This document shows, piece after piece, positions 552 through 44,087 of a stretch of DNA of 64,000 bases. Location: the NCBI RefSeq assembly GCF_004634385.1, contig NZ_CP037895.1:1649245-1713244 (forward strand), read 5' to 3'. A program made the translations under genes and the position numbers. Every line of letters begins with the position of its first letter. The first letter of the stretch is position 1. Source of the stretch: Thermaerobacter sp. FW80 (GTDB lineage Bacteria; Bacillota; Sulfobacillia; Thermaerobacterales; Thermaerobacteraceae). Below the pieces are notes generated by a model. That model worked only from the letters and a program-made list of their open reading frames with translations. It had not been told where the DNA came from and ran no database searches.

Positions 552-3347
552 ATGAGCTTGGCGAAGATCGAAGCGCGCCAGGACCTGCGCGTCCAGGTTG
601 ACGTGGCAGAGGCGCTACCGACGGGTGCCCGGCTGCTGAAGGTCGACGAGCCGGACCGCACGGACGAGGTGCTGGCCGCCCTGAAGGGCTCGGGCGATTA
701 CCTGTACGTGCAGCCGAACTACATCTACGAGCCCACCGGGGCGGCCAATGATCCCTACTTCCCGCAGCAATGGGGGCTGCACAACACCGGACAGGTCATT
801 CTCGGGCGGCCCGGAGTGCCGGATGCGGACCTCAATGGTCCCGAGGTCTGGGACGTGACGAAGGGCTCCAGGGACGTGGTCGTGGCCGTGATCGACACCG
901 GGGTCGACGTGAGCCATCCTGACCTCCGGGACGCGATATGGGTCAACGAGGCCGAAGCCACCGGGAGCCCCGGCGTGGATGACGATCACAACGGTTATGT
1001 GGACGACGTCCACGGATTCGATTTCGTCAATGGCGACGGCACCGTGTTCGACCCCGAGGACGGCGACGAGCACGGCACCCACGTCGCCGGCATCATCGCC
1101 GCCCGCTGGGGTGATCGTCAGGGCGTGGCCGGCCTGGCGCCCGGCATGCGGATCATGGTGCTGAAGGTTCTCGGTCCGGGAGGGGGTTCCACGGCCAACG
1201 CCATCGAGGCCATCGCGTATGCCCAGAAAATGGGGGCGAAGATCGCCAACCTCTCATGGGGCAATTATTCGTATGACCCGGCCCTCTACGAGGCCCTTCG
1301 TGGGGCGTCGCTGCTGTTCGTCGCAGGAGCCGGCAACGATGCTTCCAACAATGACCGGACCCCCTTCTATCCCGCGTCCTATCGGATTTCCAACCTGGTG
1401 TCCGTGGCCGCGGCGGACAACCGCGGTGCCCTGGCCGTGTTCTCCAATTACGGACCGGGTACCGTCGACCTGGCCGCGCCGGGGCAGGACATCCTGAGTA
1501 CCGTACCACCGTTGCCCGACTCGGGAGCTGCCCTGCAGGTGGATGCCGGGCTGTACAGGGCCGTCGTGTTGGGCTTCGACCTCCAGCAGGTACCCGATGC
1601 CGCCATCCAGCGGCTCATTCTCCAACGGGCTCTGGCGTTCTTCGGTGTAGAGCGAGGGGATCGCGTCCTGTTGGTCGATGACGACGGTAGCAGCGACTTC
1701 GACTCCTGGCATGTCCCGGATGTGTCCTCGTACTACGAGATGGCGTTGCGTGGTTTGGGGCAGGCGTACGACGAAATCGAGGTCGCCGGTCCGGGCCCCG
1801 CACCGTTGCCGGATCTCGACCCCGCCCAGTATCCGGCGGTGATCTGGTTCACCGGCCACACGCCTGGATCGTTCTCGGAGCCCAACTTGACGTGGGTGGA
1901 CCAGTACCAGCTGGCTCGTTACCTTCTGCAGGGGGGCGCGTTGCTCCTGGCCGGGCCCGATGCCCTTCAGCATGTGGAGGGATCGGTCTTCGTCCGGCAG
2001 TACCTCTACACCTCGGTTGCAGGCGAGGAGACGCAACGCCTCGACGTGATCGCCACTCGAGGCTCGCTGTGGAACGAGGGCCTGGCCTTCCGGTTGACGC
2101 TGTCCCCGAACACGTACACGATTCCCGACCGCCTGGAGCCCGCTGGTCCCTGGGCGCACAAGGCCCTGATCTACCCCGCGCAACCGGATCGGCTCTACGC
2201 CTACGAGAGCGGTACGTCGATGGCCGCGCCCCACGTGACGGCCGTGGCGGCCCTGGTGGCCAGCCGCTACCCCGCGATGACCGCGGCCGAGATTCGCGAG
2301 CGTATCCTGGCGACGGGCAAGCCCATGCCCGGCCTGGTGGGTCGCATCGCGAACCCGGTGTTCCCTGATGCTGCAGCCGCGGTGGGGAAGCGTGAGGAAT
2401 CCGAGGAGCCCCCTGTTGCGCCGCCGGCGCCGCCCGAGCCACCCGAAGGGCAACCGCCCCAACCCGAGCCGCCGGGCGGATCACCCCCGCCGGGCTCCGA
2501 ACCCCAACCCGATGGGCCCGCCTTCCGGGACGTTCCGGCCTCCATGGCCTTGGCGGACGCGATCCGGCGGGCCGCGGCGCTCGGCGTGGTCCAGGGATAT
2601 AAGGATGGGACGTTCCGCCCGCACGACCGGGTGACCCGCCACCAGTTCGCCAAGATGATCGTCTTGGCGTACGAGAAGGCGCGGGGCGCGTCCCTGCCCG
2701 CACGTCCCTCGGTGGACTTCTCCGACGTCGACGAGCGGGACGGCGGGCTGGGGACCTATGTGGCCAAGGCAGCGACGGCCGGTTGGATCACGGGGTATGC
2801 GGACGGCACGTTCCGGCCGACCCAACCCATCACGCGGCTTCAGACGGCCGTCATCGTTGCCCGGGCGCTGCGGCTTCCACCCGAGCCCGCCCATCCGTTC
2901 GCGGACGTCGGCGGTCCCTTCGCAGGGGCCGTTGGAGCAGTTGCGCGTGCCGGTATCATGAAGGGGATGGCGAAACCCGGCGAGCCGCGGACCCTACTGT
3001 TCAAGCCGAATGCCTCGCTGACGCGCGCCGAGGCTGCGGCGGTCGCGGTGCGGGCCTACGACTACGCGAGGTCTGCCGGAACCGTGAGGGATCACCGCGC
3101 AGCCGGCGACTCACACGCTGCGGCCGGTCCAGCGACCGGATCCATGCCTGAAGCGCGAGGAGTGAACATCGGTTGGCCGAAACGGGAAACCGAGTCCGGA
3201 GGGCGCGCATCGCGCTGGTCGCGATCATCGGCTTGGCCCTGGCCCTGCGCCTGGGCCTCGCCGCATACCTTCGCCCCGTCCCCATTTCGGATTTCAAGGC
3301 CTACTGGAACATCGCCGTGGACTTGGCTCGCGGGGAGGGCTACGTGA
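552..3347 (+). CDS. Subtilisin-like (S8) serine protease with three SLH domains
   Basis: An extracellular endopeptidase anchored to the cell wall by S-layer homology domains. Counting from ATG 552, the catalytic Asp is near residue 115 (VIDTGVD), His near 174 (HGTHVAG) and Ser near 556 (GTSMAAPHV). Between the Asn region and the Ser box lies an unusual insert of about 230 residues (positions 320-550) with LLVDDDGS and VIWFTG, like the alpha/beta module seen in some secreted peptidases. A Pro-rich linker (about 615-655) leads to three SLH repeats, the first near 657 with GYKDGTFRP. The signal peptide lies upstream behind a TAG at 513, so as written the product may not be exported. The last 58 codons overlap the next gene and look like shadow sequence, so a lost stop or frameshift after the third SLH repeat is possible. 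A paralogue lies at 49804-51633. Confidence 0.8.
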   Translation: MSLAKIEARQDLRVQVDVAEALPTGARLLKVDEPDRTDEVLAALKGSGDYLYVQPNYIYEPTGAANDPYFPQQWGLHNTGQVILGRPGVPDADLNGPEVWDVTKGSRDVVVAVIDTGVDVSHPDLRDAIWVNEAEATGSPGVDDDHNGYVDDVHGFDFVNGDGTVFDPEDGDEHGTHVAGIIAARWGDRQGVAGLAPGMRIMVLKVLGPGGGSTANAIEAIAYAQKMGAKIANLSWGNYSYDPALYEALRGASLLFVAGAGNDASNNDRTPFYPASYRISNLVSVAAADNRGALAVFSNYGPGTVDLAAPGQDILSTVPPLPDSGAALQVDAGLYRAVVLGFDLQQVPDAAIQRLILQRALAFFGVERGDRVLLVDDDGSSDFDSWHVPDVSSYYEMALRGLGQAYDEIEVAGPGPAPLPDLDPAQYPAVIWFTGHTPGSFSEPNLTWVDQYQLARYLLQGGALLLAGPDALQHVEGSVFVRQYLYTSVAGEETQRLDVIATRGSLWNEGLAFRLTLSPNTYTIPDRLEPAGPWAHKALIYPAQPDRLYAYESGTSMAAPHVTAVAALVASRYPAMTAAEIRERILATGKPMPGLVGRIANPVFPDAAAAVGKREESEEPPVAPPAPPEPPEGQPPQPEPPGGSPPPGSEPQPDGPAFRDVPASMALADAIRRAAALGVVQGYKDGTFRPHDRVTRHQFAKMIVLAYEKARGASLPARPSVDFSDVDERDGGLGTYVAKAATAGWITGYADGTFRPTQPITRLQTAVIVARALRLPPEPAHPFADVGGPFAGAVGAVARAGIMKGMAKPGEPRTLLFKPNASLTRAEAAAVAVRAYDYARSAGTVRDHRAAGDSHAAAGPATGSMPEARGVNIGWPKRETESGGRASRWSRSSAWPWPCAWASPHTFAPSPFRISRPTGTSPWTWLAGRAT

Positions 3348-5649: not shown

Positions 5650-5995
5650 GTCCGCACCCACTTCGTCGTCGACATCCACGACCCGAGACCGCGGGCCGCG
5701 CCGGGTCGGGTCGCCTCCTGGCGTCGGTCCCGCGGCCTGCCGGCGCGCCGCCGTGGTTGCGGCAATCCGGGCCCCGGTACGAGGCCAGTATAGCGGAAAT
5801 TCCCTGCGGTGCGGGTGGATGCAGGGTGGTGCGGCCCGTGCGCGCAGCGGGAGCCGGTTCGTCCTGTGGTGCACGACGGTGCGTCCCTTTCGGTGAGGAG
5901 AAGGGCGAAGAGCCTATAAGCGGCAGGGCGGCCGCATGTCGGCTCGCCGCCTTCGTGTTACCCTTGTCCCAGGTTCGCCGCGGGAGGAACCGGGA

Positions 5996-7186
5996 TTGAA
6001 CGTCTTGCTGGCGACCGCGTTCGAGTATCCCCACCTCGGTGGCTTGTCGACCCACATGACCTTGCTGGCGAAGGGGCTCCGGGCGCAGGGGCACGACGTC
6101 CGCATCCGCTCCTTCACTGATCTCAGCCGTGTCCAGCGGGCGGCGACCCGCGGGCCTGCCTGGCTGTTGAACCGGGTGCAGCGGGGATGGGGCACCTGGT
6201 GGACGACCGCCATGCGCATCCGCTTTCTCGTCCGTCTCCTCAGGGCGGAGTCCGCGTGGCTCGACGTCCTCAATGTCGAGGACCCGATGGCTGCGGTGGC
6301 GGCCCAGCGGGCAGGCCTCCGGTACGTGTACACGGTGCACGGTTACGCCACGGACGAGCACGTCGCCGCAGGGCGCATCCGGCGCGACAGCTGGGTCCAC
6401 CGGTGGCACCTCGAGCTGGAACGGCGCGCGCTGGGCGGTGCGCAGCACGTGGTGGCCGTGGATTCGCGGATCCGCCGGCACGTCGAGCAGTTGGCGGGGC
6501 ATCGCCGGGTGACGGTGATCCCCAACTTCGTCGACGGCGACTGGCCGAGGCAAGCGCCCGACAGGACGGCCGCGCGGGCCACGCTGGGCCTTGCCGACGA
6601 CGCCTTCGTCGTCCTGTGCCCACGACGCCTGACCCCGAAGAACGGCGTCGTCTACGCCTTGGAGGCGATGGACCTCGTGCGGAACGGCGAGGTGGAGTGG
6701 CCGGCGGACCGCCGCCCGCTGCTCGTGGTGGTGGGCACCGGCGAGCAGTGGCCGGCGGTGCAGGCCTTCGTGCGCCAGCGAGGGCTCGCGCCCTTCTGCC
6801 GGCTGGAAGGCGGCCGGCCGCACGAGGCGATGGCGGTCTACCTGAGGGCCGCGGACGCGGTGGTGATCCCTTCGATCCACGCCGCCGGGGTGGAGGAGGC
6901 GACCTCCATCAGCGCCCTGGAGGCCATGGTCTTTGGCGTGCCGGTGGTCGCCTCGGCGGTGGGGGGCTTGAAGGAGATCATCCGGGACGGCGAGACGGGG
7001 TTGCTGGTGCCGCAGAAGCGCCCCGACGCCCTGGCTCGAGCGCTGGCCCGCCTGGCGGCCGAGCCGTCCCTGGCACGGCGTCTGGCCGAGGCGGCCCGGG
7101 CGTATGTGCTCGCCCACCATTCGCACCTGGCCGCAGCCGCTCGTTTTCTGCACATCTACGGCCAGGCGACGGCCCAGGTCGGTTGA
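5996..7186 (+). CDS. GT4-family glycosyltransferase
   Basis: A GT-B enzyme of about 396 residues. The N-domain starts LNVLLATAFEYPHLGGLSTH with the Gly-rich acceptor loop. The C-domain has VIPNFVDGDW, CPRRLTPKNG, the donor-site stretch EEATSISALEAMVFGVPVVA with the usual E-x7-E spacing, and GLLVPQKRPDALARAL. TTG 5996 is preferred because GGGAGG at 5982-5987 sits eight bases upstream; an ATG at 5936 in frame is an alternative. It opens the envelope cluster 5996-15859. Substrate sugars cannot be predicted. Confidence 0.85.
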   Translation: MNVLLATAFEYPHLGGLSTHMTLLAKGLRAQGHDVRIRSFTDLSRVQRAATRGPAWLLNRVQRGWGTWWTTAMRIRFLVRLLRAESAWLDVLNVEDPMAAVAAQRAGLRYVYTVHGYATDEHVAAGRIRRDSWVHRWHLELERRALGGAQHVVAVDSRIRRHVEQLAGHRRVTVIPNFVDGDWPRQAPDRTAARATLGLADDAFVVLCPRRLTPKNGVVYALEAMDLVRNGEVEWPADRRPLLVVVGTGEQWPAVQAFVRQRGLAPFCRLEGGRPHEAMAVYLRAADAVVIPSIHAAGVEEATSISALEAMVFGVPVVASAVGGLKEIIRDGETGLLVPQKRPDALARALARLAAEPSLARRLAEAARAYVLAHHSHLAAAARFLHIYGQATAQVG

Positions 7187-7574
7187 CGCGCACCGCGGCG
7201 CGGCGCGGGGCGGGTGTACGGCTTGATCCCCACATCTTGGTGGGCGACCGGCCCCTTCGCGGGAGAGGACTTTGTTGCAGAGGGACGAATCTTGTATGTT
7301 CGTGCGCTTCCTTTTGCTTGGCCCGTGCCGGAACGGCGTGCCCGGACCAACGTGCCGTGCCCGACGCGCGGGACCCGGCGACCGGGCCGCCGGTGTGGGG
7401 GGCGGGGGACCCGTACCGGTCTCGCCGGGGGTCTCTGGCCCGTTTCGGCCTTGCCGGGCGTCCCGTGCACGGGTCCCGAAGCGGTGACGAGCCATGGGAC
7501 CGCTGACCACCCGACAGGCGACGCCACAGAAGGAAATGGACCGTCTTGCGACAGCGCCTGGAGAGGATGCCCGA
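7187..7574. other. Gene-free stretch of about 390 bases
   Basis: GC-rich spacer between the GT4 and the O-antigen-ligase-type gene. Short open frames exist but none has a recognisable domain or a convincing ribosome site. It holds the candidate promoter at 7272-7300. Nothing else was recognised. Confidence 0.5.
7272..7300 (+). promoter_or_regulatory. Possible sigma-A-type promoter
   Basis: TTGTTG at 7272-7277 and TATGTT at 7295-7300 are separated by 17 bases in one of the few AT-richer patches here. The match to TTGACA/TATAAT is moderate. It could drive the gene at 7575 and those after it. Confidence 0.3.
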
Positions 7575-8999
7575 ATGGTGACACACCCCGTCGCGGGCAC
7601 CGGGGCTTGGCGTGGGTCCCGGACGACGGTTGCCTTGCTGCGCGGCTTGACCTTGGTCACGATCACGTACCTGGCCTTCCGGTTCGTCCTGGTGGACTAT
7701 GTGTGGTCCCCCCTGCGCTGGATCAGCGATGTGCTGTCCCTCAGCCTGGGCGGGCTCGCGGTGCTGGCCCTGTGGAGGGATCCCGCTTGGCGGCGGGCGG
7801 TTTGGGCTTGCCGGCCTGGGCTTCGGAACGTGCTCCTCGGGTTGGCGGGGGCGATCGTCCTGGCCGTCGTCACGGTGCTCGCCTCGGGTCTTGCCAACGG
7901 ACGCGGGCTCGTGGACATCGCCACCGGCATCCGGAGCCTCGTGCTGTGGTGCACGCTGCTGGCCGCCGTGGGACTCGTCGCGGCCTGGGAGTTGGCCTAC
8001 GGACCGGGTCAGGCCCAGGGTGCCGGCCGACGCCCCTGGGCCTTGCGCGTGCTTTCTTGGGTCGTCGCCCTCGCCGTGTTCATGGCGCTGGTGGAAACCG
8101 CGGGCGTGTTGCTCTTCGGGTGGTACGGCCCGGCGGAGTGGGTGGCGACCTTGACGGGGTCCAACGCCGGGCGGGCCGTCGGACTGATGAAGAACCCCAA
8201 CACCCTGGGATGCTTTCTGGTCCTGGGCCTGCTGCTGCTCTGGCCGCGATGGGTGGCGGCGGTGACCCGGCGGGTGCGGGATCGAGCCGTCTGGGCGTGG
8301 GCGGTCCTGCTGCTCATGGGGCTGGCGCTAACCTACTCGCGGCAGGGGTGGCTCGCCGTTGCCGCGGGTCTGCTGGCGGCCGGATGGGTGGCCCGCCGCC
8401 TCGTCCCGTGGCGCGTGACGGCGCTGTTGATGCTGGTTGTCGTCGTGGTCACCGTGCTGACCACGATGTTGCCGGTGCCGCTGTTCGCCTGGGGCGACGA
8501 TGACGGGATCTCGCGGACCCGTCAGTTGCAGTTGCGGAGGATCTCCGAGACCTTCGACGAGGAGACCGTGGACAAGAGCCGTGCCACCGGGCGGCTGGCC
8601 ATGGTGCGTTACGCGCTGGCCATGCTGCGCGACCACCCGGTGCTGGGCGTCGGGCCCGGCCGCGTTGGTGGGGCTGGGGCGCTGAATCCCGACCATGAAC
8701 TCCAGGTCCGGTACGGGTTGCCCGACCATGCGTACGCGGACAACCAGTACGTGCGGACCGCCATGGAGCTCGGCACCCTCGGGCTGCTTGCGTTAGGCGC
8801 GATGATCCTCGCGACCCTTGCCCTGGCGTACCGCACGGCACGCGTCGATCCCCTGCAAGGTGCTGCGTTCACGGCGGTCGTGGTGGCGATGGTGAGCTTC
8901 GGGCTGGGTCAGAACGCGTGGGAGAACCAGCCCCTGGCCGCGGTCTACTGGCTGTCCTTGGGGGCGGCCTGGGCGCTGCAACTCCGGCAGGAACGATGA
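7575..8999 (+). CDS. O-antigen ligase/Wzy-type membrane protein
   Basis: A protein of about 474 residues with ten or more hydrophobic segments and one long outer loop (DDDGISRTRQLQL to DNQYVRTAMELG) that contains HPVLGVGPGRVG, the pattern of the O-antigen ligase/polymerase (Wzy_C) family. GAKxPNTxG-like motif appears as LMKNPNTLGCFLVLGL. It should join or polymerise lipid-linked glycan on the outer face of the membrane. ATG 7575 is chosen over an ATG at 7494 because GGAGAGGA lies eight bases upstream. One GGACGAACCGG word (reverse) lies at 7679-7689. Confidence 0.8.
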   Translation: MVTHPVAGTGAWRGSRTTVALLRGLTLVTITYLAFRFVLVDYVWSPLRWISDVLSLSLGGLAVLALWRDPAWRRAVWACRPGLRNVLLGLAGAIVLAVVTVLASGLANGRGLVDIATGIRSLVLWCTLLAAVGLVAAWELAYGPGQAQGAGRRPWALRVLSWVVALAVFMALVETAGVLLFGWYGPAEWVATLTGSNAGRAVGLMKNPNTLGCFLVLGLLLLWPRWVAAVTRRVRDRAVWAWAVLLLMGLALTYSRQGWLAVAAGLLAAGWVARRLVPWRVTALLMLVVVVVTVLTTMLPVPLFAWGDDDGISRTRQLQLRRISETFDEETVDKSRATGRLAMVRYALAMLRDHPVLGVGPGRVGGAGALNPDHELQVRYGLPDHAYADNQYVRTAMELGTLGLLALGAMILATLALAYRTARVDPLQGAAFTAVVVAMVSFGLGQNAWENQPLAAVYWLSLGAAWALQLRQER

Positions 9000-9096: not shown

Positions 9097-10290
9097 ATGA
9101 AGTGGTTATGGGCACTGGGGCGTCGGCTGGCCGGGCTCGCCGAGGTCGTCCTCGTGTGGGCCGACGCGTTGGTTCCCAAAAGACGACAAATCCTGTTCTC
9201 CTCCGGCAATGGACGGATGTATGCGGACAATGCCCGGTATCTGTTCGAATACATGGCGCGCCATACGCGGGAACGGCTCGTGTGGTGGTTCCACGATCCG
9301 CGCCTCGTGGCATGGGCCCGTCAACGGGGAGTGCAGGCCGTGTTCGCACGGAGCCTGGCGGGGTTGTGGACGGCCCTGCGCAGCGGGGTCTGGGTGATGG
9401 ATCATGGCCCCATCCTCCCTGCGTGGCATCCTCGGCGGCGCGTCACGGTCCAGTTGTGGCACGGGGTCGGGCCCAAGCGGGAGCCCGCGCGAACGGCGCC
9501 CATCCGGGTCGTCCGCAAGCAGCGGGAGTTCTTCTCGAAATACGATCTTTTCACCACCACCTCGTACGAGGTGGCCCCGGAGTGGGGCACCCGGATCCCG
9601 CTGAAACCGGGCGCCCTGGTCCTCGACGGCTATCCACGGCACGACGCCATCCTGCGGGATGATCGCGAGCGGGCCCGGGAGCGGATCGCGCGCGTGTTGG
9701 GTCGGCCTGGATTGCCGGCGCGCATCCTGCTCTACGCCCCCACGTGGCGCGAACAAGGGGCAGAAGCCGAGCCAGACTGGACACGGTTGGAGGAATTGGT
9801 GGAGAAGTCGGACACGCTGGTCCTGCTGCGAACCCACCCCCTTTACTCGCGCTGGCAGCCGTCCCGGCTGGATCGCCGGTTCGTCCGATTCAATGGGGAC
9901 GTGGCACCCGATATCTACGAGTACCTTGCAGGGGTTGACGTGCTCGTGACCGACTACTCGAGCCTATGTGTGGACTTTCTCGTCCTGCGGCGACCGATCG
10001 TCTTTTGCGTGCCCGATCTTGAGGAATACGATCGCGTGCGGGGCATTCACTGGCGGTATCCCGACGATTTCCCGGGCGACGTGGCAGCATCCATGGACGA
10101 GCTCGTCCCGGTGTTGGAGCACGTACTCACCCGCGGCCGTCTCACCGAGGCAGGGGCGCGGCGACAGGCCGTGCTCTACGACCGGTATTTCGCTCTGCCG
10201 CCGGGCCGGGCATGTGAGCGCTTGACCGCCCGGATCGAGGAGTTGATGGACCGGCGATGGCCACGCCACGACCAGCGTTCAACGCAGTGA
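9097..10290 (+). CDS. CDP-glycerol glycerophosphotransferase (TagB/TagF) family protein
   Basis: 397 residues with the markers of the teichoic-acid transferase family: an N-terminal hydrophobic/amphipathic segment, FSSGNGRMYADNARY, the catalytic-type QLWHGVGPKR near residue 125, LLYAPTWREQ, and near the C-terminus VTDYSSLCVDFL with the conserved Asp-Tyr-Ser-Ser. Family members move glycerol-phosphate or ribitol-phosphate units from CDP-polyols to a lipid-linked primer on the inner face of the membrane. The next genes encode a nucleotidyltransferase and a glycerol-1-phosphate dehydrogenase, so the donor may be a CDP-polyol made here. It overlaps the next gene by 34 bases. Confidence 0.85.
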   Translation: MKWLWALGRRLAGLAEVVLVWADALVPKRRQILFSSGNGRMYADNARYLFEYMARHTRERLVWWFHDPRLVAWARQRGVQAVFARSLAGLWTALRSGVWVMDHGPILPAWHPRRRVTVQLWHGVGPKREPARTAPIRVVRKQREFFSKYDLFTTTSYEVAPEWGTRIPLKPGALVLDGYPRHDAILRDDRERARERIARVLGRPGLPARILLYAPTWREQGAEAEPDWTRLEELVEKSDTLVLLRTHPLYSRWQPSRLDRRFVRFNGDVAPDIYEYLAGVDVLVTDYSSLCVDFLVLRRPIVFCVPDLEEYDRVRGIHWRYPDDFPGDVAASMDELVPVLEHVLTRGRLTEAGARRQAVLYDRYFALPPGRACERLTARIEELMDRRWPRHDQRSTQ

Positions 10291-11063
10291 TCCTGGGCGC
10301 AGGGGTGGGAAGCCGCCTGGGCCCGCTGACCGCCGATCGACCCAAGGCCCTGTTGCCCCTGGCGGACGGCGGCGACACGTTCCTCGATCACTCCCTGCGT
10401 TGCCTGCAAGGGACGCCGGTGCGCCAGGTGCACGTGGTGGGCGGCCACGCCTTCGCCGCCCTCGAGGCTCATGTGGCGGCGCGCTGGGGGGACTGGCTGC
10501 GCAGGGGCGTCCTGGTGTTGCGGCGGTTTCCCGACTTCCGCACGGTGAACAACATCGGCACGCTGTACTTCGCGCGGGCGGCCTTCGTGGAGCCGTGCCT
10601 GCTGCTGAACTCGGACATCGTCTACCACCCGGCGATCCTGCGACGGGCCCTGGAGCACATGGCCCAGGAAGCGGACCAGTCCTTCATGGTGGTGGACGGC
10701 AGCGTGGATCTGGCCGAGGAGGAGATGAAGGTCGCCGTCGGCGAGGAGGGGTTCCTCCGTGCGGTGAGCAAGCGCCTCGCCCCTGCGGAGTCCGCGGGCG
10801 AATACATCGGGATCCTCTACCTGACGCCGGCCGATGCCGACGTGGTCCTGTCGGCGGCGGCGGACCTCCTGGCGGCCGGGCGCACCGACCTGTACTACGA
10901 GGACGTCATCCACAGCGTCCTGGATCGCATCCGATTGCGGCCCCTGTTCATCGACGGCCTGCCGTGGACGGAAGTCGATACGGTAGAGGACTACCAGCGG
11001 GCCCGGGCGCTGTACAGCGAGCTCAAGCGCGATGCGGCCGGGGGCAGCCATGCGCACCATTGA
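10257..11063 (+). CDS. Sugar/polyol-phosphate nucleotidyltransferase (LicC/IPCT-like)
   Basis: 268 residues with the Rossmann-like nucleotidyltransferase fold. The N-terminal signature is AVILGAGVGSRLGPLTADRP-K, then NNIGTLYFARAAF, LLNSDIVYHPAIL with the metal-binding Asp, and the C-terminal WTEVDTVEDYQRA. The NNIGTLY and EYIGILYL pattern is closer to phosphocholine or inositol-phosphate cytidylyltransferases than to hexose-phosphate enzymes. With a glycerol-1-phosphate dehydrogenase overlapping downstream and a CDP-alcohol transferase in the operon, a CTP-dependent enzyme acting on glycerol-1-phosphate is the best guess. This is inferred from context. ATG 10257 overlaps the TagB/F gene. Confidence 0.75.
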   Translation: MATPRPAFNAVILGAGVGSRLGPLTADRPKALLPLADGGDTFLDHSLRCLQGTPVRQVHVVGGHAFAALEAHVAARWGDWLRRGVLVLRRFPDFRTVNNIGTLYFARAAFVEPCLLLNSDIVYHPAILRRALEHMAQEADQSFMVVDGSVDLAEEEMKVAVGEEGFLRAVSKRLAPAESAGEYIGILYLTPADADVVLSAAADLLAAGRTDLYYEDVIHSVLDRIRLRPLFIDGLPWTEVDTVEDYQRARALYSELKRDAAGGSHAHH

Positions 11064-12114
11064 AGTGAGCCGGATCCTCAAGGTGGTCGAAACGACGGCC
11101 GACGCCGGCCGACAGATTGCCGAGGCCCTGGCGGTGCTCGCGGTCCGGCGCCCGGCCGTCTTTTGTGGGCCGGGTCGCACCCGCGAACTGGCGGAACAGA
11201 TCGTGGGCATGTTGGGCGCGGCGGCACCGCTGCTCGTGGTCCGCGAGGCCAGCGCGAGGGAGAGCGAGCGTCTCGAGGCCGAGGTGACCCGCCTGGAGAG
11301 CGACGCCATCGTCGCCGTCGGCGGGGGGAGCGTCCTGGACACGGGCAAGTTCGTGGCTGCTCGCCTGGGGATGGCGGTGGTGGCCGTCCCCACCCAGATT
11401 TCCCACGACGGCATCGTCTCCCCGGTCGCTGTGATCCGTGACGGGGACAACCGGAAGCGCAGCTTGGCCGCTACGATGCCGGCGGCCGTGATCGCCCCGC
11501 TGCACTGGATCCAGGACGCTCCCACGCCGATGCTGCTGGCGGGCATCGGCGACCTGCTCTCCAACTTCTCGGCCATCGAGGATTGGCGGCTGGCCCAGGA
11601 CCACCAGAGGGACCGGTTCGACGACTTCTCGGCCTTTCTGGCACGGCACGCGGCGCGTTCGGTGCTGCGCTCCTTGCTGCAGGGGGCGCCGGTGCGGTCG
11701 CGGGACTTCGTCCTGGAACTATTGGAGGGGCTGATGCTCAGCGGGCTGGCCATGGCCATCGCGGGCACTAGCCGTCCCTGCAGCGGCAGCGAGCACCTCA
11801 TCAGCCACGCCCTCGACTACCTCTACGGCGGTGTCGCGGCCCATGGCCTGCAGGTGGCGGCGGCGACCGTGCCCATGCTGTTGCTCCAGGGGCAGGACGG
11901 GCTGGCCCGCGACGTGTTCCGTGTCTACCGGGCACTGAACATGCCCACGAGCCTGCCGGACCTTGGTCTCACCCGCGACCAGATCGTGGAGGTCGTGCGC
12001 CAAGCCCCGCGAATGCGCCCGGGCCGATTCACGATCCTGGATGTGGCCACGCCCTCGCAGGTCGAACGCGTGCTCAAGGCCCCCGTCCCGTCCTGCTGGC
12101 CGGCCACTCCGTGA
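11050..12114 (+). CDS. sn-Glycerol-1-phosphate dehydrogenase family protein
   Basis: A 354-residue iron/zinc alcohol-dehydrogenase fold. The NAD(P) site is GGGSVLDTGK near residue 94. The family motifs follow: PTQISHDGIVSPVAV, GIGDLLSNFSAIEDWRLA with the metal Asp, SRPCSGSEHLISHALD with the first metal His, and AAHGLQVAA with the second. These match glycerol-1-phosphate dehydrogenases (EgsA/AraM family) rather than general Fe-alcohol dehydrogenases. The reaction would reduce dihydroxyacetone phosphate to sn-glycerol-1-phosphate, the archaeal-type stereoisomer. ATG 11050 is preferred; an ATG at 11032 is possible. It overlaps the nucleotidyltransferase gene, which suggests the product is activated next. 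Confidence 0.8.
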   Translation: MRTIEVSRILKVVETTADAGRQIAEALAVLAVRRPAVFCGPGRTRELAEQIVGMLGAAAPLLVVREASARESERLEAEVTRLESDAIVAVGGGSVLDTGKFVAARLGMAVVAVPTQISHDGIVSPVAVIRDGDNRKRSLAATMPAAVIAPLHWIQDAPTPMLLAGIGDLLSNFSAIEDWRLAQDHQRDRFDDFSAFLARHAARSVLRSLLQGAPVRSRDFVLELLEGLMLSGLAMAIAGTSRPCSGSEHLISHALDYLYGGVAAHGLQVAAATVPMLLLQGQDGLARDVFRVYRALNMPTSLPDLGLTRDQIVEVVRQAPRMRPGRFTILDVATPSQVERVLKAPVPSCWPATP

Positions 12115-12208
12115 CCGTCGCTGCCCCGGCGGCTGCGCCGGCGGCAGGGCGCCGGCGCCGGGCGGCACCAGGTGCGACGGGTCCCTGTTCGTGGAGGCAT
12201 CGACGGAC

Positions 12209-13792
12209 TTGGCTCGATACCGCCTGGCTCGCTCTGTCGCCTTGTTCGTGCTGCTCACCACGATCGGACGCCTGCTGGGCTTCGCTCGCGAGATGGTCTT
12301 GGCGGCGGTCTTCGGTGCGAGCGAAGTGACCGACGCCTACACCATCAGCTTCTCCATCCCGGGCGTCCTCTTCGCTGCCGTGGGCACCGCCATCACCACG
12401 GTGATGGTGCCCATGCTGGCGGCCCACCGGGCGAGGGGGGACGATGTCGCATTCCGACGGCTCGCGTGGACCCTCTTCCACGCCCTGCTCCTGGTTCTGG
12501 TGATCCTCCTGACACTGGCCCTCGCCGGTTCGGGCTGGCTGGTGCGGCTGTTCGCACCCGGGTTCACCGGGGACCAGTTTGAGTTGACCCGTCGCCTGAC
12601 CATGATCATGTTGCCCGGCATCGTCTTCATGGGGCTCACCGGGTGGATGGAGGGCGTCCTCAACTCCAGCAAGAGCTTTACGGCCCCGGCGGCGGTCTCG
12701 ATCCCGATGAACCTGGTCTTGATCGCGGTCACCTGGTTCCTGGGGACGCGCTACGGCATCGAGGCCGTAGCGTGGGGTACGCTGGCCGGCTTCGCCTCCC
12801 AGGTGGTCCTGCAGTGGACCGCGCTGCGCAAGATAGGACTCCCCTACGTGCCGGTGCTGGACTGGGGCGATCCCGATCTGCGGGCCGCCGCCCGCCGCAC
12901 CACCCCGGTGCTGCTGGCAACGGTGACCCGTCAGGCGAGCCAGGTGGTGAACCGTGCGCTGGCTTCCGGCCTGCCCGCGGGAAGCGCCGCATCCCTGTCC
13001 TTCGCGTACCGCGTGTACCTGCTGCCCCTGGGCTTGCTGGCGATCCCGCTGGTGACCGTGCTGTATCCCGACATGGCGGAGCAGGCGGCCGGCAACCGGA
13101 TGCAGGCCTTGTCCGCCACCATCAACCGGGCCCTACGCCTTTTGACCTTCATCATGGCACCCCTGACGGCGGGGGCGGTGCTGCTACGGGTGGAGATCAC
13201 CGCGCTGATCTACGAACGGGGCGCCTTCGACCGGATGGACACGCTGCTCACGGCCACCGCTCTGCTGTACTACAGTCTCGGCATGATTCCCTTCGCATGG
13301 CGCGAGCTCCTGAGCCGGGCCATGTACAGCCTCGGCGACACGCGGACCCCTGCCACCAACGGCATGATGTCCATGGGCCTCAGCATCGTGCTGTCCCTGC
13401 TGTTGGTCCGGTTCATGGGCCACGGGGGCATCGCGCTGGCCACCGCCCTGGCCACATGGTGGGCCGCATTGAGCCTGATGTTCCGTCTGCGGCGGCGGTA
13501 TGCGCAGTTGCGCTTCTACCCTCTGGCGGTGGGCTCGCTGCAGGCCGCGGTGGCGACGGCCGCGATGTCGGTCGCCGTCTGGGCCTTGCGCGGGCCTCTG
13601 CTGGGGCGGCTGGGACAGCATGCCGGGTTCGTGCCGCTGACGGCAAGCACCCTGGTCCTGGTCGGGGTGGGTGCCGTCGTCTACCTGCTGGCCTTGCTCG
13701 CGCTCGGCGTCGAAGAGCGCCGACTCCTGACTGACCTGCTGGGTCGGGCGCTGGCTCGCCCCCAAAAGGAGCGACGAGTGGGAAATGGCTGA
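12209..13792 (+). CDS. MurJ/MviN-type lipid flippase (copy 1)
   Basis: About 527 residues with 14 predicted membrane segments. The N-terminus has the family pattern LLGFAREMVLAAVFGASEVTDAY and the middle has QVVNRALASGLPAGSAASL. It belongs to the MOP superfamily that flips lipid-linked cell-wall precursors. TTG 12209 is chosen because GGAGG lies at 12192-12196 and because the upstream frame is Pro/Ala-rich shadow; GTG 12191 is an alternative. It sits between the glycerol-1-phosphate dehydrogenase and the CDP-alcohol transferase and overlaps the latter by eight bases. It may therefore export that pathway's lipid rather than lipid II. Two further copies lie in the window. Confidence 0.85.
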   Translation: MARYRLARSVALFVLLTTIGRLLGFAREMVLAAVFGASEVTDAYTISFSIPGVLFAAVGTAITTVMVPMLAAHRARGDDVAFRRLAWTLFHALLLVLVILLTLALAGSGWLVRLFAPGFTGDQFELTRRLTMIMLPGIVFMGLTGWMEGVLNSSKSFTAPAAVSIPMNLVLIAVTWFLGTRYGIEAVAWGTLAGFASQVVLQWTALRKIGLPYVPVLDWGDPDLRAAARRTTPVLLATVTRQASQVVNRALASGLPAGSAASLSFAYRVYLLPLGLLAIPLVTVLYPDMAEQAAGNRMQALSATINRALRLLTFIMAPLTAGAVLLRVEITALIYERGAFDRMDTLLTATALLYYSLGMIPFAWRELLSRAMYSLGDTRTPATNGMMSMGLSIVLSLLLVRFMGHGGIALATALATWWAALSLMFRLRRRYAQLRFYPLAVGSLQAAVATAAMSVAVWALRGPLLGRLGQHAGFVPLTASTLVLVGVGAVVYLLALLALGVEERRLLTDLLGRALARPQKERRVGNG

Positions 13793-14537
13793 TCAAGACG
13801 TCCAGGCATCATCCAGAGGCGTCCGGGGCATGCTCAAGCCCATGGATGCCTGGTGGACGGTGCTGGTGATCGATCCCATCGCCGTCCGCCTGACCGTTTG
13901 GATCGCACGCTACACGCGGTTGACCCCCAATGCCGTGACCGCCATCGCCAACCTCATCGGCTTCCTGGCAGGGCTGGCCTTCCTCACCGGTTCCCTGGCG
14001 GCAGGGGCTGTATTGTACCAGGTGGCCTTCCTGTTCGACTGCGTGGACGGCAAACTGGCCCGTTACAAGGGGATGAGCTCGCCGGTGGGGGCGTTCCTGG
14101 ACTGGATCCTGGACCGGTCCATGGACGTCTACGCCGCGGTGACCCTGGCCGTGGGCAGCTGGCGGCAGGCGGGCGACGACCGCCTGCTCATCGCCGGGCT
14201 CATCTGGCTTGGTCTCTTTTGCATTCGGTACCTGATGGTGCAGCGGCGGCACGTGCTGCTGGGCTTCGGCCGGGAGCCGGAGGAATCGGTCCGGCAGTCG
14301 GTGGCCCGTGGGGGTCTGGGGCGCCGCTGGCTGGAGTTTTGCCGGCGCCACCGGCTCTACCCCGTGCCGAGCAACATCGAGATCTTCCTGGTGACCTTCA
14401 CCGTGTTTCCCCTGTTGAACCGGCCTTTGTGGGGCTTTGCGCTGGGCGCGGCCGCCTTTGCCTTCCTCTCGGTGACGGGGCTCCGCACGGTCCTGAAGGA
14501 GCTGGGGCGGGTGGCGCGGCAGGAGGCCGCCCACTAG
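13785..14537 (+). CDS. CDP-alcohol phosphatidyltransferase family protein
   Basis: 250 residues with about six hydrophobic segments and the complete family signature D-x2-DG-x2-AR-x8-G-x3-D-x3-D: DCVDGKLAR near residue 85 and GAFLDWILD after it. The enzyme swaps CMP of a CDP-alcohol for an acceptor hydroxyl in the membrane. In this operon the CDP-alcohol could be CDP-glycerol made from glycerol-1-phosphate, or CDP-diacylglycerol with a polyol-phosphate acceptor. The start ATG 13785 overlaps the stop of the MurJ gene in ATGGCTGA, so the two are translationally coupled. Confidence 0.88.
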   Translation: MADQDVQASSRGVRGMLKPMDAWWTVLVIDPIAVRLTVWIARYTRLTPNAVTAIANLIGFLAGLAFLTGSLAAGAVLYQVAFLFDCVDGKLARYKGMSSPVGAFLDWILDRSMDVYAAVTLAVGSWRQAGDDRLLIAGLIWLGLFCIRYLMVQRRHVLLGFGREPEESVRQSVARGGLGRRWLEFCRRHRLYPVPSNIEIFLVTFTVFPLLNRPLWGFALGAAAFAFLSVTGLRTVLKELGRVARQEAAH

Positions 14538-14704
14538 GGCGGTGAACTGCCCACAGTACCAACCGGCGCCATGGGCGAGAACAGGACCGGACACCTCCCA
14601 GGGGGTAGCCGAGAGCACGGCGCAGGCAAAGCCACGGCTCGTCGTGCAGGTGCGGTTCGGTTGGGGCGTGATGGCGCATCGTACCAGCGCAGGGAGGCGA
14701 AGGC

Positions 14705-15859
14705 ATGAACCTGTACGACGTGGTCGTGGTGGGGGCCGGGCTGGCGGGGCTGCAGTGCGCCCGCCTGCTGGCGGGTCAAGGCGTGAAGGTCCTGCTGGTC
14801 GACCGCAAGCCACAGGTGGACCGGTTCGTCCACACCACAGGCATTTTCGTGCGGAAGACGCTGGAGAGCTTCGACCTGCCCGCCGATTGCCTCGGGCCGG
14901 TGGTACGGGACGTGGTGCTGTATTCCCCGGCGGGGCGTGCCCTTCACCTGTCGAGCCTCCACGACGAGTTCCGCGTGGGCCGGTTGCGGCGCCTGTACGG
15001 CCGGTGGCTCGACGAGGCGGTGGGGGCCGGCGCCCACTGGGCGGGCGGCACCCGGTTTCTGGGCTCCGAACCGGGTCGAAGCGGCGGGGTGTGCCGGGTC
15101 GACCTCGAGACGGGAGGGCGCCGCTGGGCCGTGCAGGCCCGTTTTCTCATCGGCGCCGACGGCTGCCAGTCGGCGGTAGCCCGGGACCTGGGACTTGACG
15201 TGAACCGGGAGTGGATCGTGGGCGCGGAGGAAGTCTACCGGGGTGTGCCACTGGACGGCCCGCCCGCCTTCCACTGCTACCTGGACCCGCGGCTGGCGCC
15301 GGGGTATCTGGCCTGGGTGGTCCACGACGGGGAGGAGGTCCACGTGGGCACGGGGGGCTATCCCGACCGCTTTCACGTCACCACCGCCCTGGCGGCCTTC
15401 AAAGAACGCGTGGCTCCCCGTTTGGGCCTCCAGCGGGGCCGGCTGGTGGAGCGGCGCGGCGGCCGCATCCCCGTGGGTGGTGTTCTGCGGCGCATCGCCT
15501 GCCCGCGGGGGCTTTTAGTGGGCGATGCCGCCGGTGCCGTGTCGCCCCTGACGGCCGGCGGTCTCGATCCGTGCCTGCGGCTGTCCGACCTGGCGTCCCA
15601 CGTGGTGGCGGCCTACCTGGACCGGGGCGACCCCCGCATCCTCGAGCTGTACCACGGTGGCGCCTTCCAGCCTCGCTTCCTCTCCCGGCGCTGGATGCGG
15701 CGCGCCCTGGCGGCCTTCCGGCATCCCCTGTGGTATGAACTGGCCTGCGCGGCCTTCCGTGGCACGCCTTTGCGCCGGCTGGCCTGGCAGGTGTTTTTCG
15801 GCCGCGGTTCGTTCCCCGATGTGGAGCCGCTGAAGGCGGCGCTGGGGGTGGGGGTGTGA
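14705..15859 (+). CDS. Geranylgeranyl-reductase-family FAD oxidoreductase
   Basis: 384 residues. The N-terminal dinucleotide fold is VVVGAGLAGLQCARLLA with an acidic/basic end at LVDRKPQ; a second FAD motif is LIGADGCQSAVAR near residue 155, and LLVGDAAGAVSPLTAGGL near 275 is the third. This is the layout of the p-hydroxybenzoate-hydroxylase/geranylgeranyl-reductase family. Members saturate isoprenoid chains of lipids or quinones. Behind the glycerol-1-phosphate genes it may reduce a polyprenyl lipid of the same pathway. The substrate is unproven. A gap of 167 bases separates it from the upstream gene, and the frame contains one reverse GGACGAACCGG word at 14821-14831. Confidence 0.8.
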   Translation: MNLYDVVVVGAGLAGLQCARLLAGQGVKVLLVDRKPQVDRFVHTTGIFVRKTLESFDLPADCLGPVVRDVVLYSPAGRALHLSSLHDEFRVGRLRRLYGRWLDEAVGAGAHWAGGTRFLGSEPGRSGGVCRVDLETGGRRWAVQARFLIGADGCQSAVARDLGLDVNREWIVGAEEVYRGVPLDGPPAFHCYLDPRLAPGYLAWVVHDGEEVHVGTGGYPDRFHVTTALAAFKERVAPRLGLQRGRLVERRGGRIPVGGVLRRIACPRGLLVGDAAGAVSPLTAGGLDPCLRLSDLASHVVAAYLDRGDPRILELYHGGAFQPRFLSRRWMRRALAAFRHPLWYELACAAFRGTPLRRLAWQVFFGRGSFPDVEPLKAALGVGV

Positions 15860-15922
15860 GGCTTGGCGAGGGCGATGGATGGGAGGCTTCCGCTTCGGAG
15901 CGCGGTGCAGGAGGCGAGGGTG

Positions 15923-16225
15923 GTGGGGAAGAGCCGGCAAGCGATTGTCGCCGTCTCCGCCTACATTACGAATGACAAGGGAGAGGTTTTGCTGGTAAAG
16001 AGTCATGCCCGTTCAGGCACCTGGGAGTTGCCGGGCGGGCAGGTGGAGGCGGGGGAGGCGCTCGACGAGGCGATCCAACGCGAGGTGCTGGAAGAGACTG
16101 GTGTTGCCATCCGCCTCATCGGATTGAAATCCCGGGTGCTCGATGCGATGAAGGGTGCAACGGTCGTTCCGTACGAAACATGGGCGATGGAGCCGAGCCG
16201 CCGCGTCGCACGGCTGGAGCGGTAG
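15923..16225 (+). CDS. NUDIX hydrolase domain protein, C-terminally short
   Basis: The Nudix box is complete: GGQVEAGEALDEA, then IQREVLEETGV, which matches G-x5-E-x7-REVxEExGV. Such enzymes hydrolyse nucleoside diphosphates linked to other groups. GTG 15923 is chosen because AGGAGG lies at 15909-15914; TTG 15863 would add 20 residues. The product ends after about 100 residues, where most relatives continue with two more strands and a helix. The tail after VVPYETW looks out of frame (SRRVARLER), so the 3' end may be broken. Confidence 0.7.
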   Translation: MGKSRQAIVAVSAYITNDKGEVLLVKSHARSGTWELPGGQVEAGEALDEAIQREVLEETGVAIRLIGLKSRVLDAMKGATVVPYETWAMEPSRRVARLER

Positions 16226-42395: not shown

Positions 42396-44087
42396 CTACG
42401 GGCTGCCCGTGCGCCGCATCCCCGGCCGGGCCGTCGCCGCAGCCTGACGCGCCCGGTCCAGCAGGCGCCGCCCTGCCTCCACCAGGTCGGTCACCTCCGG
42501 GGACCGCAGCACCACCAGAGCCAGCAGGTAGGCGACGCAGCCGACGGCACCGGGCCCGGCCACCAGCGCCAGCTCCACCGCGGCGCCCGCCGCCCCGTCC
42601 GCCAGCGCCGACGGGTGGATCTGCCAGTGGGCCAGCAGCGCCCGGTACGCGCCGTGCATCGCCACGCCGGACGCCGCGGCGGCCATCGCCACCCGTCCCG
42701 TCGACGCCAGGAGCCCACCCACGTCGACGGCTCCGTAGCGCCGGTCCAGGTGGGCCACCAGGAGCACCAGGCCGGTGGTGAAGGAGAGCGTGGTGGCGAG
42801 GGCGAGGCCCGTGATGCCGAGCCACGGGCCGAGCACCAGGTCCCCTGCGACGTTGACCCCCATGGCCACGAGGGCCACCCGGGCCGGCGTGCGGCCGTCC
42901 CGGGCGGCATACAGCGCCCGATTGGCCAGGTCGCGCAGGGCCATGGGCACGAGCCCCAGCCCATAGGCGGCCAGCGCGAGGGCGGTCAGCGTGGCGTCCT
43001 GCGCATCGAAGCGGCCCCGCCCATAGACGAAGGCCACGATGGGATCCCGCAGCACGACCAGGGCCACGGTCATGGGTGCCAGCCCCACGGCCAACGCCCC
43101 CATCCCGCGCTGCAGCAACCGCCGGAACGCCGCCCCATCGCCCGCCTCCGCCACCGCCCCCAGGGAGGGGTACACCGCCTGCACCAGCGCCATGGCCACC
43201 AGGCCGTGGGGCAGGGTGACCACGCGAAAGGCGTAGTTCAGGGCGGAGATGATCCCCTCGCCCAGCGTGGACCCCACCATCCGGTCGACGAAGACGTTGA
43301 CCTCGCTGACGGCGGCGCCGAGGAAGAGGGGGGGCAGCAGGCCGGCGATGGTGCGGAGGCCGGGATCGTCCCAATCCAGGAGCCAGCGGTGGCGGAACCC
43401 CACCCAGCGGGCCTCGGGCAGCTGGATCAGGACCCGCAGCAGGGATCCCACGGTGAACCCCGCGGCCAGCGCCCAGGGGCCGTAGGTCGTCCCGAAGAAC
43501 GCGGCCGCCGCGATCATCGCCAGGTTGAACGGGATGCCCGTGGCGGCGGGGCCGGTGAAGCGCCGGTGGGCGTGCAGCAGGCCCGTCAGGAGGTTCATCA
43601 CCGTGACGAAGAGCGACGCCACCAGCAGGAGGCGGGTCAGCCCCGCGGCGAGCCGCACCTGCTCCGGGCCGAAACCCGGCGCCATCCACCGCACCACGGG
43701 CTCGGCCAGGACGCCGAGGAGGGCCAGGGCCGGCACCACCACCACGAGCACCGCGTTGGCCAGCGCGCTGAAGCTGCGGGCGGCTTCGCCCCGGCGGCCT
43801 GCGGCCACGTAGCCCGCCAGCACGGGCGTCGCGGCGGTGGCGATGGCCGTCGAGACCATGCCCAGGACCAGGTTGGGCACGCCCTGGGCCACCAGGAACG
43901 CATCCAGCTCGGGGCTTGCGCCGAAGACCGAGGCGTACACGGTCTCGCGGAGGAAGCCGAGGACGCGGCTGGCGGCCGTGAGCACGGCGATGATCAGGGT
44001 GGCGGCGGCGACGCCCTGCGCCACCGCGCCGGGACGTTCCCGCCGGCCGCCCACCGGCCGGCGCCGGCTTGGAGCCCGTTCCGACAC
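42396..44087 (-). CDS. MurJ/MviN-type lipid flippase (copy 2)
   Basis: 563 residues and about 14 membrane segments. The N-terminus reads ASRVLGFLRETVYASVFGAS, the middle VNVFVDRMVGSTLGEGIISAL and ALYAARDGRTPARVALVAM. It is more diverged from copies 1 and 3 than they are from each other. GTG 44087 has GGGGGAGGG six bases upstream; the frame beyond it is antisense to motA and is rejected. It is transcribed away from motAB. Whether it flips lipid II or another lipid cannot be read from sequence. Confidence 0.87.
   Translation of the reverse strand: MSERAPSRRRPVGGRRERPGAVAQGVAAATLIIAVLTAASRVLGFLRETVYASVFGASPELDAFLVAQGVPNLVLGMVSTAIATAATPVLAGYVAAGRRGEAARSFSALANAVLVVVVPALALLGVLAEPVVRWMAPGFGPEQVRLAAGLTRLLLVASLFVTVMNLLTGLLHAHRRFTGPAATGIPFNLAMIAAAAFFGTTYGPWALAAGFTVGSLLRVLIQLPEARWVGFRHRWLLDWDDPGLRTIAGLLPPLFLGAAVSEVNVFVDRMVGSTLGEGIISALNYAFRVVTLPHGLVAMALVQAVYPSLGAVAEAGDGAAFRRLLQRGMGALAVGLAPMTVALVVLRDPIVAFVYGRGRFDAQDATLTALALAAYGLGLVPMALRDLANRALYAARDGRTPARVALVAMGVNVAGDLVLGPWLGITGLALATTLSFTTGLVLLVAHLDRRYGAVDVGGLLASTGRVAMAAAASGVAMHGAYRALLAHWQIHPSALADGAAGAAVELALVAGPGAVGCVAYLLALVVLRSPEVTDLVEAGRRLLDRARQAAATARPGMRRTGSP

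Follow-up and report, generated by a model that had tools for sequence, protein, structure and literature searches.

Gene content of a putative surface-polymer locus

We examined a 64,000-nucleotide stretch (the window) of the 3.04 Mb genome of Thermaerobacter sp. FW80 (contig NZ_CP037895.1, positions 1,649,245 to 1,713,244; the genome is G000 below, and its sampled relatives in the family are G001 to G004). Both gene content and GC point to an organism of the Thermaerobacter kind. The window holds a cluster encoding, among others, a putative sn-glycerol-1-phosphate dehydrogenase (G1PDH), a nucleotidyltransferase (NTP) and a CDP-alcohol phosphotransferase (CDP-AP). A preliminary description had placed six closely packed genes between positions 9097 and 15859, and all six open reading frames (ORFs) were recovered there. 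Each lies on the + strand, GC is strongly biased at third codon positions, and the family matches are of the kinds first named. Gene names are given at the family level because several NCBIfam matches in the cluster fell below curated cut-offs. The six are listed below with two genes upstream of them.

5936..7186, + strand: GT4 glycosyltransferase of the putative polymer locus (family search; homologues in G001, G002 and G003)
7494..8999, + strand: Wzy_C / O-antigen-ligase-type membrane protein (PF04932, 3.1e-23; order kept in G001)
9097..10290, + strand: TagB/F-like member of the CDP-glycerol:poly(glycerophosphate) glycerophosphotransferase family (PF04464, 2.6e-56, 191.6 bits; WHG and RTHP motifs)
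10257..11063, + strand: NTP of the LicC/PntC/IPCT kind, GEYIGI subtype (NTP_transf; best by profile and fold, PntC and LicC)
11032..12114, + strand: G1PDH, EgsA/AraM family (Fe-ADH_2; best NCBIfam model PRK00843)
~12191..13792, + strand: MurJ-family flippase paralogue (TIGR01695, 354 bits, above cut-off)
13785..14537, + strand: CDP-AP of the AF2299/DIPPS/PIPS group (CDP-OH_P_transf; full signature)
14705..15859, + strand: geranylgeranyl-reductase-type flavoprotein (superfamily match below cut-off; neighbour outside the conserved module)

Overlaps joined the TagB/F and NTP genes (34 bases), the NTP and G1PDH genes (32 bases), and the MurJ and CDP-AP genes (8 bases), and 167 bases separated CDP-AP from the reductase gene. 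The MurJ start is approximate (candidate start codons GTG at 12191 or TTG at 12209, not 11963). This protein, one of three MurJ paralogues in the genome, probably flips the polymer or a lipid-linked intermediate, and the Wzy_C protein is a probable polymerase or ligase of the locus. Two more MurJ-family genes occur in the window, at 47530-49095 (57% identity to the cluster copy) and 42480-44003 (37%). A promoter scan of the GC-rich window stretch found no promoter, and terminator-like matches (10 versus 3.6 in shuffles) lay nearly all within genes.

The preliminary description had also reported intact motifs in the dehydrogenase and CDP-AP, which a motif check bore out. The dehydrogenase carries the NAD-binding GGGS (residues 97-100) and a metal triad (D126/H255/H271) that is invariant in the G1PDH alignment. 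Its best NCBIfam model was the G1PDH model PRK00843 (242.7 bits, below the curated cut-off of 413), and its best PDB matches were G1PDHs at 130-141 bits, together with 3ce9, named a glycerol dehydrogenase, at 139; the next glycerol dehydrogenase scored 67. The Asp/His/His triad, the GGGS motif and this closer resemblance to G1PDHs than to glycerol dehydrogenases place the protein in the G1PDH (EgsA/AraM) family. The NTP retains G-x-G-x-R, NSD (118-120) and ExD (239-241), and PntC and LicC were its best profile matches and the closest folds to its model (pLDDT 93.5), with the inositol-phosphate cytidylyltransferases of T. maritima and A. fulgidus ranked lower, among sugar nucleotidyltransferases. 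Its nearest relatives in both rankings are CTP users, and CTP is its predicted substrate. The TagB/F protein has WHG at residues 121-123 and RTHP at 245-248.

The CDP-AP signature DCVDGKLARYKGMSSPVGAFLDWILD (residues 85-110) is intact and follows the pattern DxxDGxxARx8GxxxDxxxD. Profile searches matched 4o6m, 4mnd and 6h5a, and the model (pLDDT 83.9) ranked AF2299 above DIPPS and DIPPS above the PIP synthases, while PGP synthase and the choline phosphotransferases scored far lower; signature and fold thus place the protein in the class I AF2299/DIPPS/PIPS group. The donor of AF2299 is CDP-glycerol, and neither AF2299 nor DIPPS handles lipids (PMC4634129). Because AF2299 is the best fold match and uses CDP-glycerol, the modelled fold favours CDP-glycerol as the CDP-AP donor.

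Conservation of the dehydrogenase-nucleotidyltransferase pair

Among a genus sample of four genomes (G000 included), G1PDH and close CDP-AP homologues occurred in G000 and G001 only, and the TagB/F, G1PDH and CDP-AP genes were either all present or all absent. PF04464 genes likewise were single in G000 and G001, in this cluster, and absent, as was G1PDH, from G002-G004. G001 keeps the order GT4, Wzy_C, TagB/F, NTP, G1PDH, MurJ, CDP-AP, reductase. To survey more distant bacteria, we searched genome contigs with a G1PDH alignment (a single-protein search had returned nothing) and scored neighbours within 3.5 kb of G1PDH at the loci of the best 80 of 587 relatives, so the phylum counts below describe a sample. 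An NTP gene lay beside G1PDH at 21 of 30 bacterial loci versus 0 of 50 archaeal loci, the latter including L125, which was counted by its record title since its domain was absent from the table (Fisher p = 1.4e-12, for loci that are not independent and with relatedness ignored). Loci with the pair came from seven or more named phyla, among them Bacillota, Chloroflexota, Actinomycetota, Bacteroidota, Pseudomonadota, Melainabacteria and Kerfeldbacteria; mesophiles that have it include Vibrio harveyi, Arenibacter and Fictibacillus. Archaeal sequences formed one clade in the unrooted G1PDH tree (100/99), and the NTP-linked bacterial lineages were many and deep. Given the identical gene order in G001 and the recurrence of the pair across phyla, the arrangement is conserved and not a product of chance.

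The partners of the pair are CDP-alcohol users: PF04464 or CDP-AP genes were frequent neighbours, and the window has both. In G125, G159 and G087, the pair lies downstream of PF00953 (TagO type), PF04464 (TagB-like) and PF03808 (TagA type) genes, an arrangement like that of a wall-teichoic-acid locus (families were scanned in the G125 locus, and the other two loci read as alike), and G068 has two PF04464 genes in two clusters, each with its own pair. G000 itself has two PF00953 genes above cut-off, both outside the window, one of which is expected to be MraY. TagD, the glycerol-3-phosphate cytidylyltransferase (TIGR01518), did not exceed its cut-off in any of 11 genomes, pair-bearing or not, and its best score in G000 was 30 bits against a cut-off of 165. 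Since a TagD match is missing and the PF04464 genes lie in pair-bearing clusters, the pair would most simply be the source of CDP-glycerol for these transferases.

Predicted pathway and competing explanations

We consider it reasonably probable that the cluster is a surface-polymer locus using glycerol phosphate of the archaeal hand (sn-1), leading from dihydroxyacetone phosphate (DHAP) through sn-glycerol-1-phosphate (G1P) and sn-1 CDP-glycerol to a teichoic-like polymer. G1PDH would reduce DHAP to G1P, and the NTP, which we propose to be a CTP:sn-glycerol-1-phosphate cytidylyltransferase, would join G1P with CTP to give CDP-glycerol of the sn-1 type. The TagB/F enzyme would then move G1P to a polyprenyl-diphosphate-linked glycan made by the neighbouring glycosyltransferases, or to the growing chain, which the MurJ paralogue would flip and the Wzy_C protein would join outside. 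In the least certain step, the AF2299-related CDP-AP may spend the same CDP-glycerol on a second glycerophosphate product (an anchor, cap or decoration). The computed basis of this pathway is gene families, intact motifs, adjacency, co-occurrence, no TagD match and no HAD-IIA enzyme. There is good support for the core of the pathway as one unit, whereas we infer its chemistry, namely substrates, stereochemistry, polymer and flipping direction. The preliminary description had likewise proposed that G1P is made, activated with CTP, transferred, flipped and polymerised. Conservation, co-occurrence and the lack of TagD agree with its surface-polymer idea and with a core of G1P synthesis, CTP activation, hand-over to a TagB/F-type transferase and flipping by the MurJ paralogue.

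Several points weigh against this pathway. The substrates of all its enzymes are predictions, and the dehydrogenase score falls short of the PRK00843 cut-off. LicC, PntC, IPCT and sugar nucleotidyltransferases share a fold, and sequence cannot tell the specificity of the NTP. The TagD absence comes from one family search, and an unrelated glycerol-3-phosphate cytidylyltransferase may be present; TagB/F enzymes, moreover, need not be stereospecific. The CDP-AP is also near the PIP synthases, which use the lipid CDP-diacylglycerol (CDP-DAG), and G128 (85% complete) has the pair and a CDP-AP with no PF04464 match, so a single polymer type does not fit all pair-bearing members. Inositol (IPCT), phosphonate (PntC) and choline (LicC) roles for the NTP were rejected, because no inositol-phosphate synthase, PEP mutase or Lic gene is among the families of the cluster and the steady neighbour is G1PDH.

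The PIP synthases, the nearest lipid-handling relatives of the CDP-AP, take CDP-DAG and a polyol phosphate as substrates (PMC4634129). The CDP-AP could then join CDP-DAG to a polyol phosphate, be it G1P or a different one, to form an unusual phospholipid, leaving the NTP to serve TagB/F alone. We think this unlikely: AF2299 is nearer to the CDP-AP by profile and fold, and in G128 such a division of labour would leave the NTP without a partner.

Wang et al. (2010) reportedly found that the gtp1 dehydrogenase, gtp2 cytidylyltransferase and gtp3 phosphotransferase together yield CDP-2-glycerol. A route of this kind, feeding the PF04464 transferase WchX in pneumococcal types 15 and 23F, could in principle operate here. 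The wchX-gtp1-gtp2-gtp3 order of type 23F (PMC3493582) equals the PF04464-dehydrogenase-NTP-HAD order of L104, similar trios occur in L044, L045, L085 and L121, and the first three gene kinds are present in the window, where a dehydrogenase, a nucleotidyltransferase and a PF04464-type transferase likewise adjoin in a putative surface-polymer locus. However, no gtp3-like HAD gene was found: a search for HAD-IIA (PF13344) had no match anywhere in G000 or G001. The window NTP is also of another subtype. NTPs with GEYIGI-like motifs (GEY[IV]G; 19, the window's included) had an adjacent HAD-IIA gene in none of 19 cases, whereas the 11 SID[VI]Y NTPs, a separate clade (100/99), had one in 8; CDP-AP neighbours occurred at 12 of 19 GEYIGI loci versus 0 of 11 SID[VI]Y loci. 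Because HAD linkage, CDP-AP linkage and the gtp-like gene order all split by NTP subtype, there may be two products, the HAD-linked subtype probably making CDP-2-glycerol and the GEYIGI subtype using G1P directly. The equation of Gtp3 with HAD-IIA and of Gtp2 with SID[VI]Y rests on synteny, the Gtp1-3 sequences lying outside the comparison. We regard a CDP-2-glycerol route in the window as distinctly unlikely.

A lipid role was part of the preliminary description, which read the reductase as saturating an isoprenoid chain. In one such role, G1PDH would supply PcrB for heptaprenylglyceryl phosphate-type lipids, as in the Bacillus AraM/PcrB pathway, which shares the G1PDH family with the window. 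A PcrB homologue is indeed present (G000:C1:1192047-1192703), and the reductase gene adjoins the cluster. Yet PcrB lies ~0.47 Mb away and was above cut-off in all five sampled family genomes, including three (G002-G004) with no G1PDH match, so PcrB does not track G1PDH and, unlike in Bacillus, the two are not genetically coupled; G1PDH is coupled to the NTP instead. The reductase is kept in G003 (93% identity) and G004 (77%), two genomes without G1PDH or PF04464 whose CDP-AP matches are all weak, and in G003 it is preceded by a MurJ gene and another ORF reading as a glycosyltransferase. Because it is retained in relatives lacking the module, the reductase gene is a flanking gene outside it. 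Conservation, a check that the preliminary description had called for, held for the pair and for the gene order in G001 but did not tie the reductase to the module, and the isoprenoid-reduction step is not supported. Nor is an archaeal-type lipid from the cluster, and we judge the PcrB explanation very unlikely.

A soluble solute made by the NTP and CDP-AP (diglycerol phosphate or glycerophosphoinositol, as in hyperthermophiles), with TagB/F unrelated, is just as improbable: the NTP resembles IPCT and the CDP-AP resembles AF2299 and DIPPS, enzymes of soluble substrates (PMC4634129), and the organism looks thermophilic from its likely kin, but the cluster sits among glycosyltransferase, flippase and ligase genes, the CDP-AP orthologue in Thermoactinomycetaceae is preceded by a TagGH-like ABC exporter, and the pair extends to the mesophiles above.

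For the usual G3P dehydrogenase, GpsA (PF07479), there was no match in G000-G003 versus matches in 10 of 14 control genomes, and no GlpK, GlpD, GpsA, PlsX or PlsY motifs were seen in the window and the 390 kb of G000 stretches looked at. Elsewhere in the window, a large ORF upstream of the polymer locus (552-3347) looks by eye like a subtilisin-type protease whose C-terminal part carries SLH-like repeats. A NUDIX-like ORF of 120 aa follows the reductase (15863-16225); it seems to carry an internal deletion, since its longer G001 homologue (174 aa) holds an internal part missing from the window copy.

Relation to known systems and significance

The claim that no pathway with this gene set had been described proved too strong, as the pneumococcal genes and a Streptomyces synteny block come close. 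The latter (CDP-AP, sugar-phosphate nucleotidyltransferase, araM, GT2, tagG and tagH; reported without tested function, PMC13118837) has the G1PDH-NTP-CDP-AP trio and is resembled by Thermoactinomycetaceae loci L077, L080 and L081; it differs in TagGH export, where the window has a MurJ paralogue, and the window has PF04464 within its gene run. The Archaeoglobus AF2299 and IPCT-DIPPS proteins also bring cytidylyltransferase-like and CDP-AP domains together, with CDP-glycerol as the AF2299 donor, but these archaeal domains are fused, with no known tie to G1PDH or polymer genes, whereas the proteins are separate here. Wall teichoic acid synthesis (TagD, TagB and TagF of Bacillus subtilis) shares the CDP-glycerol donor, the PF04464 transferase and, in G125, G159 and G087, the TagO-, TagA- and TagB-like surroundings. 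Its TagD would be replaced here by G1PDH and a LicC-like NTP, and the predicted sn-1 form contrasts with the sn-glycerol-3-phosphate that wall teichoic acid takes from CDP-glycerol; lipoteichoic acid takes sn-glycerol-1-phosphate from phosphatidylglycerol (PMC7086022). TagF-like capsule polymerases accepted sn-glycerol-1-phosphate from racemic CDP-glycerol in vitro, where it was termed a non-natural substrate (PMC5974469). No glycerol-1-phosphate cytidylyltransferase was named in the literature searched, most subscription papers lying outside that search; the novelty of the step from G1P to CDP-glycerol is therefore provisional, with described relatives in gtp1-gtp2-gtp3 (for CDP-2-glycerol) and the Streptomyces block.

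The role of bacterial G1PDH is debated in discussions of the lipid divide, and its presence is often interpreted as a vestige of lipids of the archaeal type (PMC6431249, PMC5059525, PMC13400652). We tentatively suggest, as a proposal not far short of probable, that many bacterial G1PDHs are non-lipid enzymes feeding cytosolic sn-1 CDP-glycerol, made by a dedicated cytidylyltransferase, into surface glycerophosphate polymers built in the cytosol, and that these share the stereochemistry so far tied to lipoteichoic acid, which is built outside the cell from phosphatidylglycerol. If true, this would be a second route to sn-glycerol-1-phosphate polymers, and stereochemistry would therefore no longer prove a phosphatidylglycerol origin. 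That G1PDH recurrently stands beside a nucleotidyltransferase of the CTP type and users of CDP-alcohols suggests a role for the bacterial enzyme other than in lipids, and the spread of the core pair across phyla may explain why many bacteria retain an enzyme usually linked to archaeal membranes.

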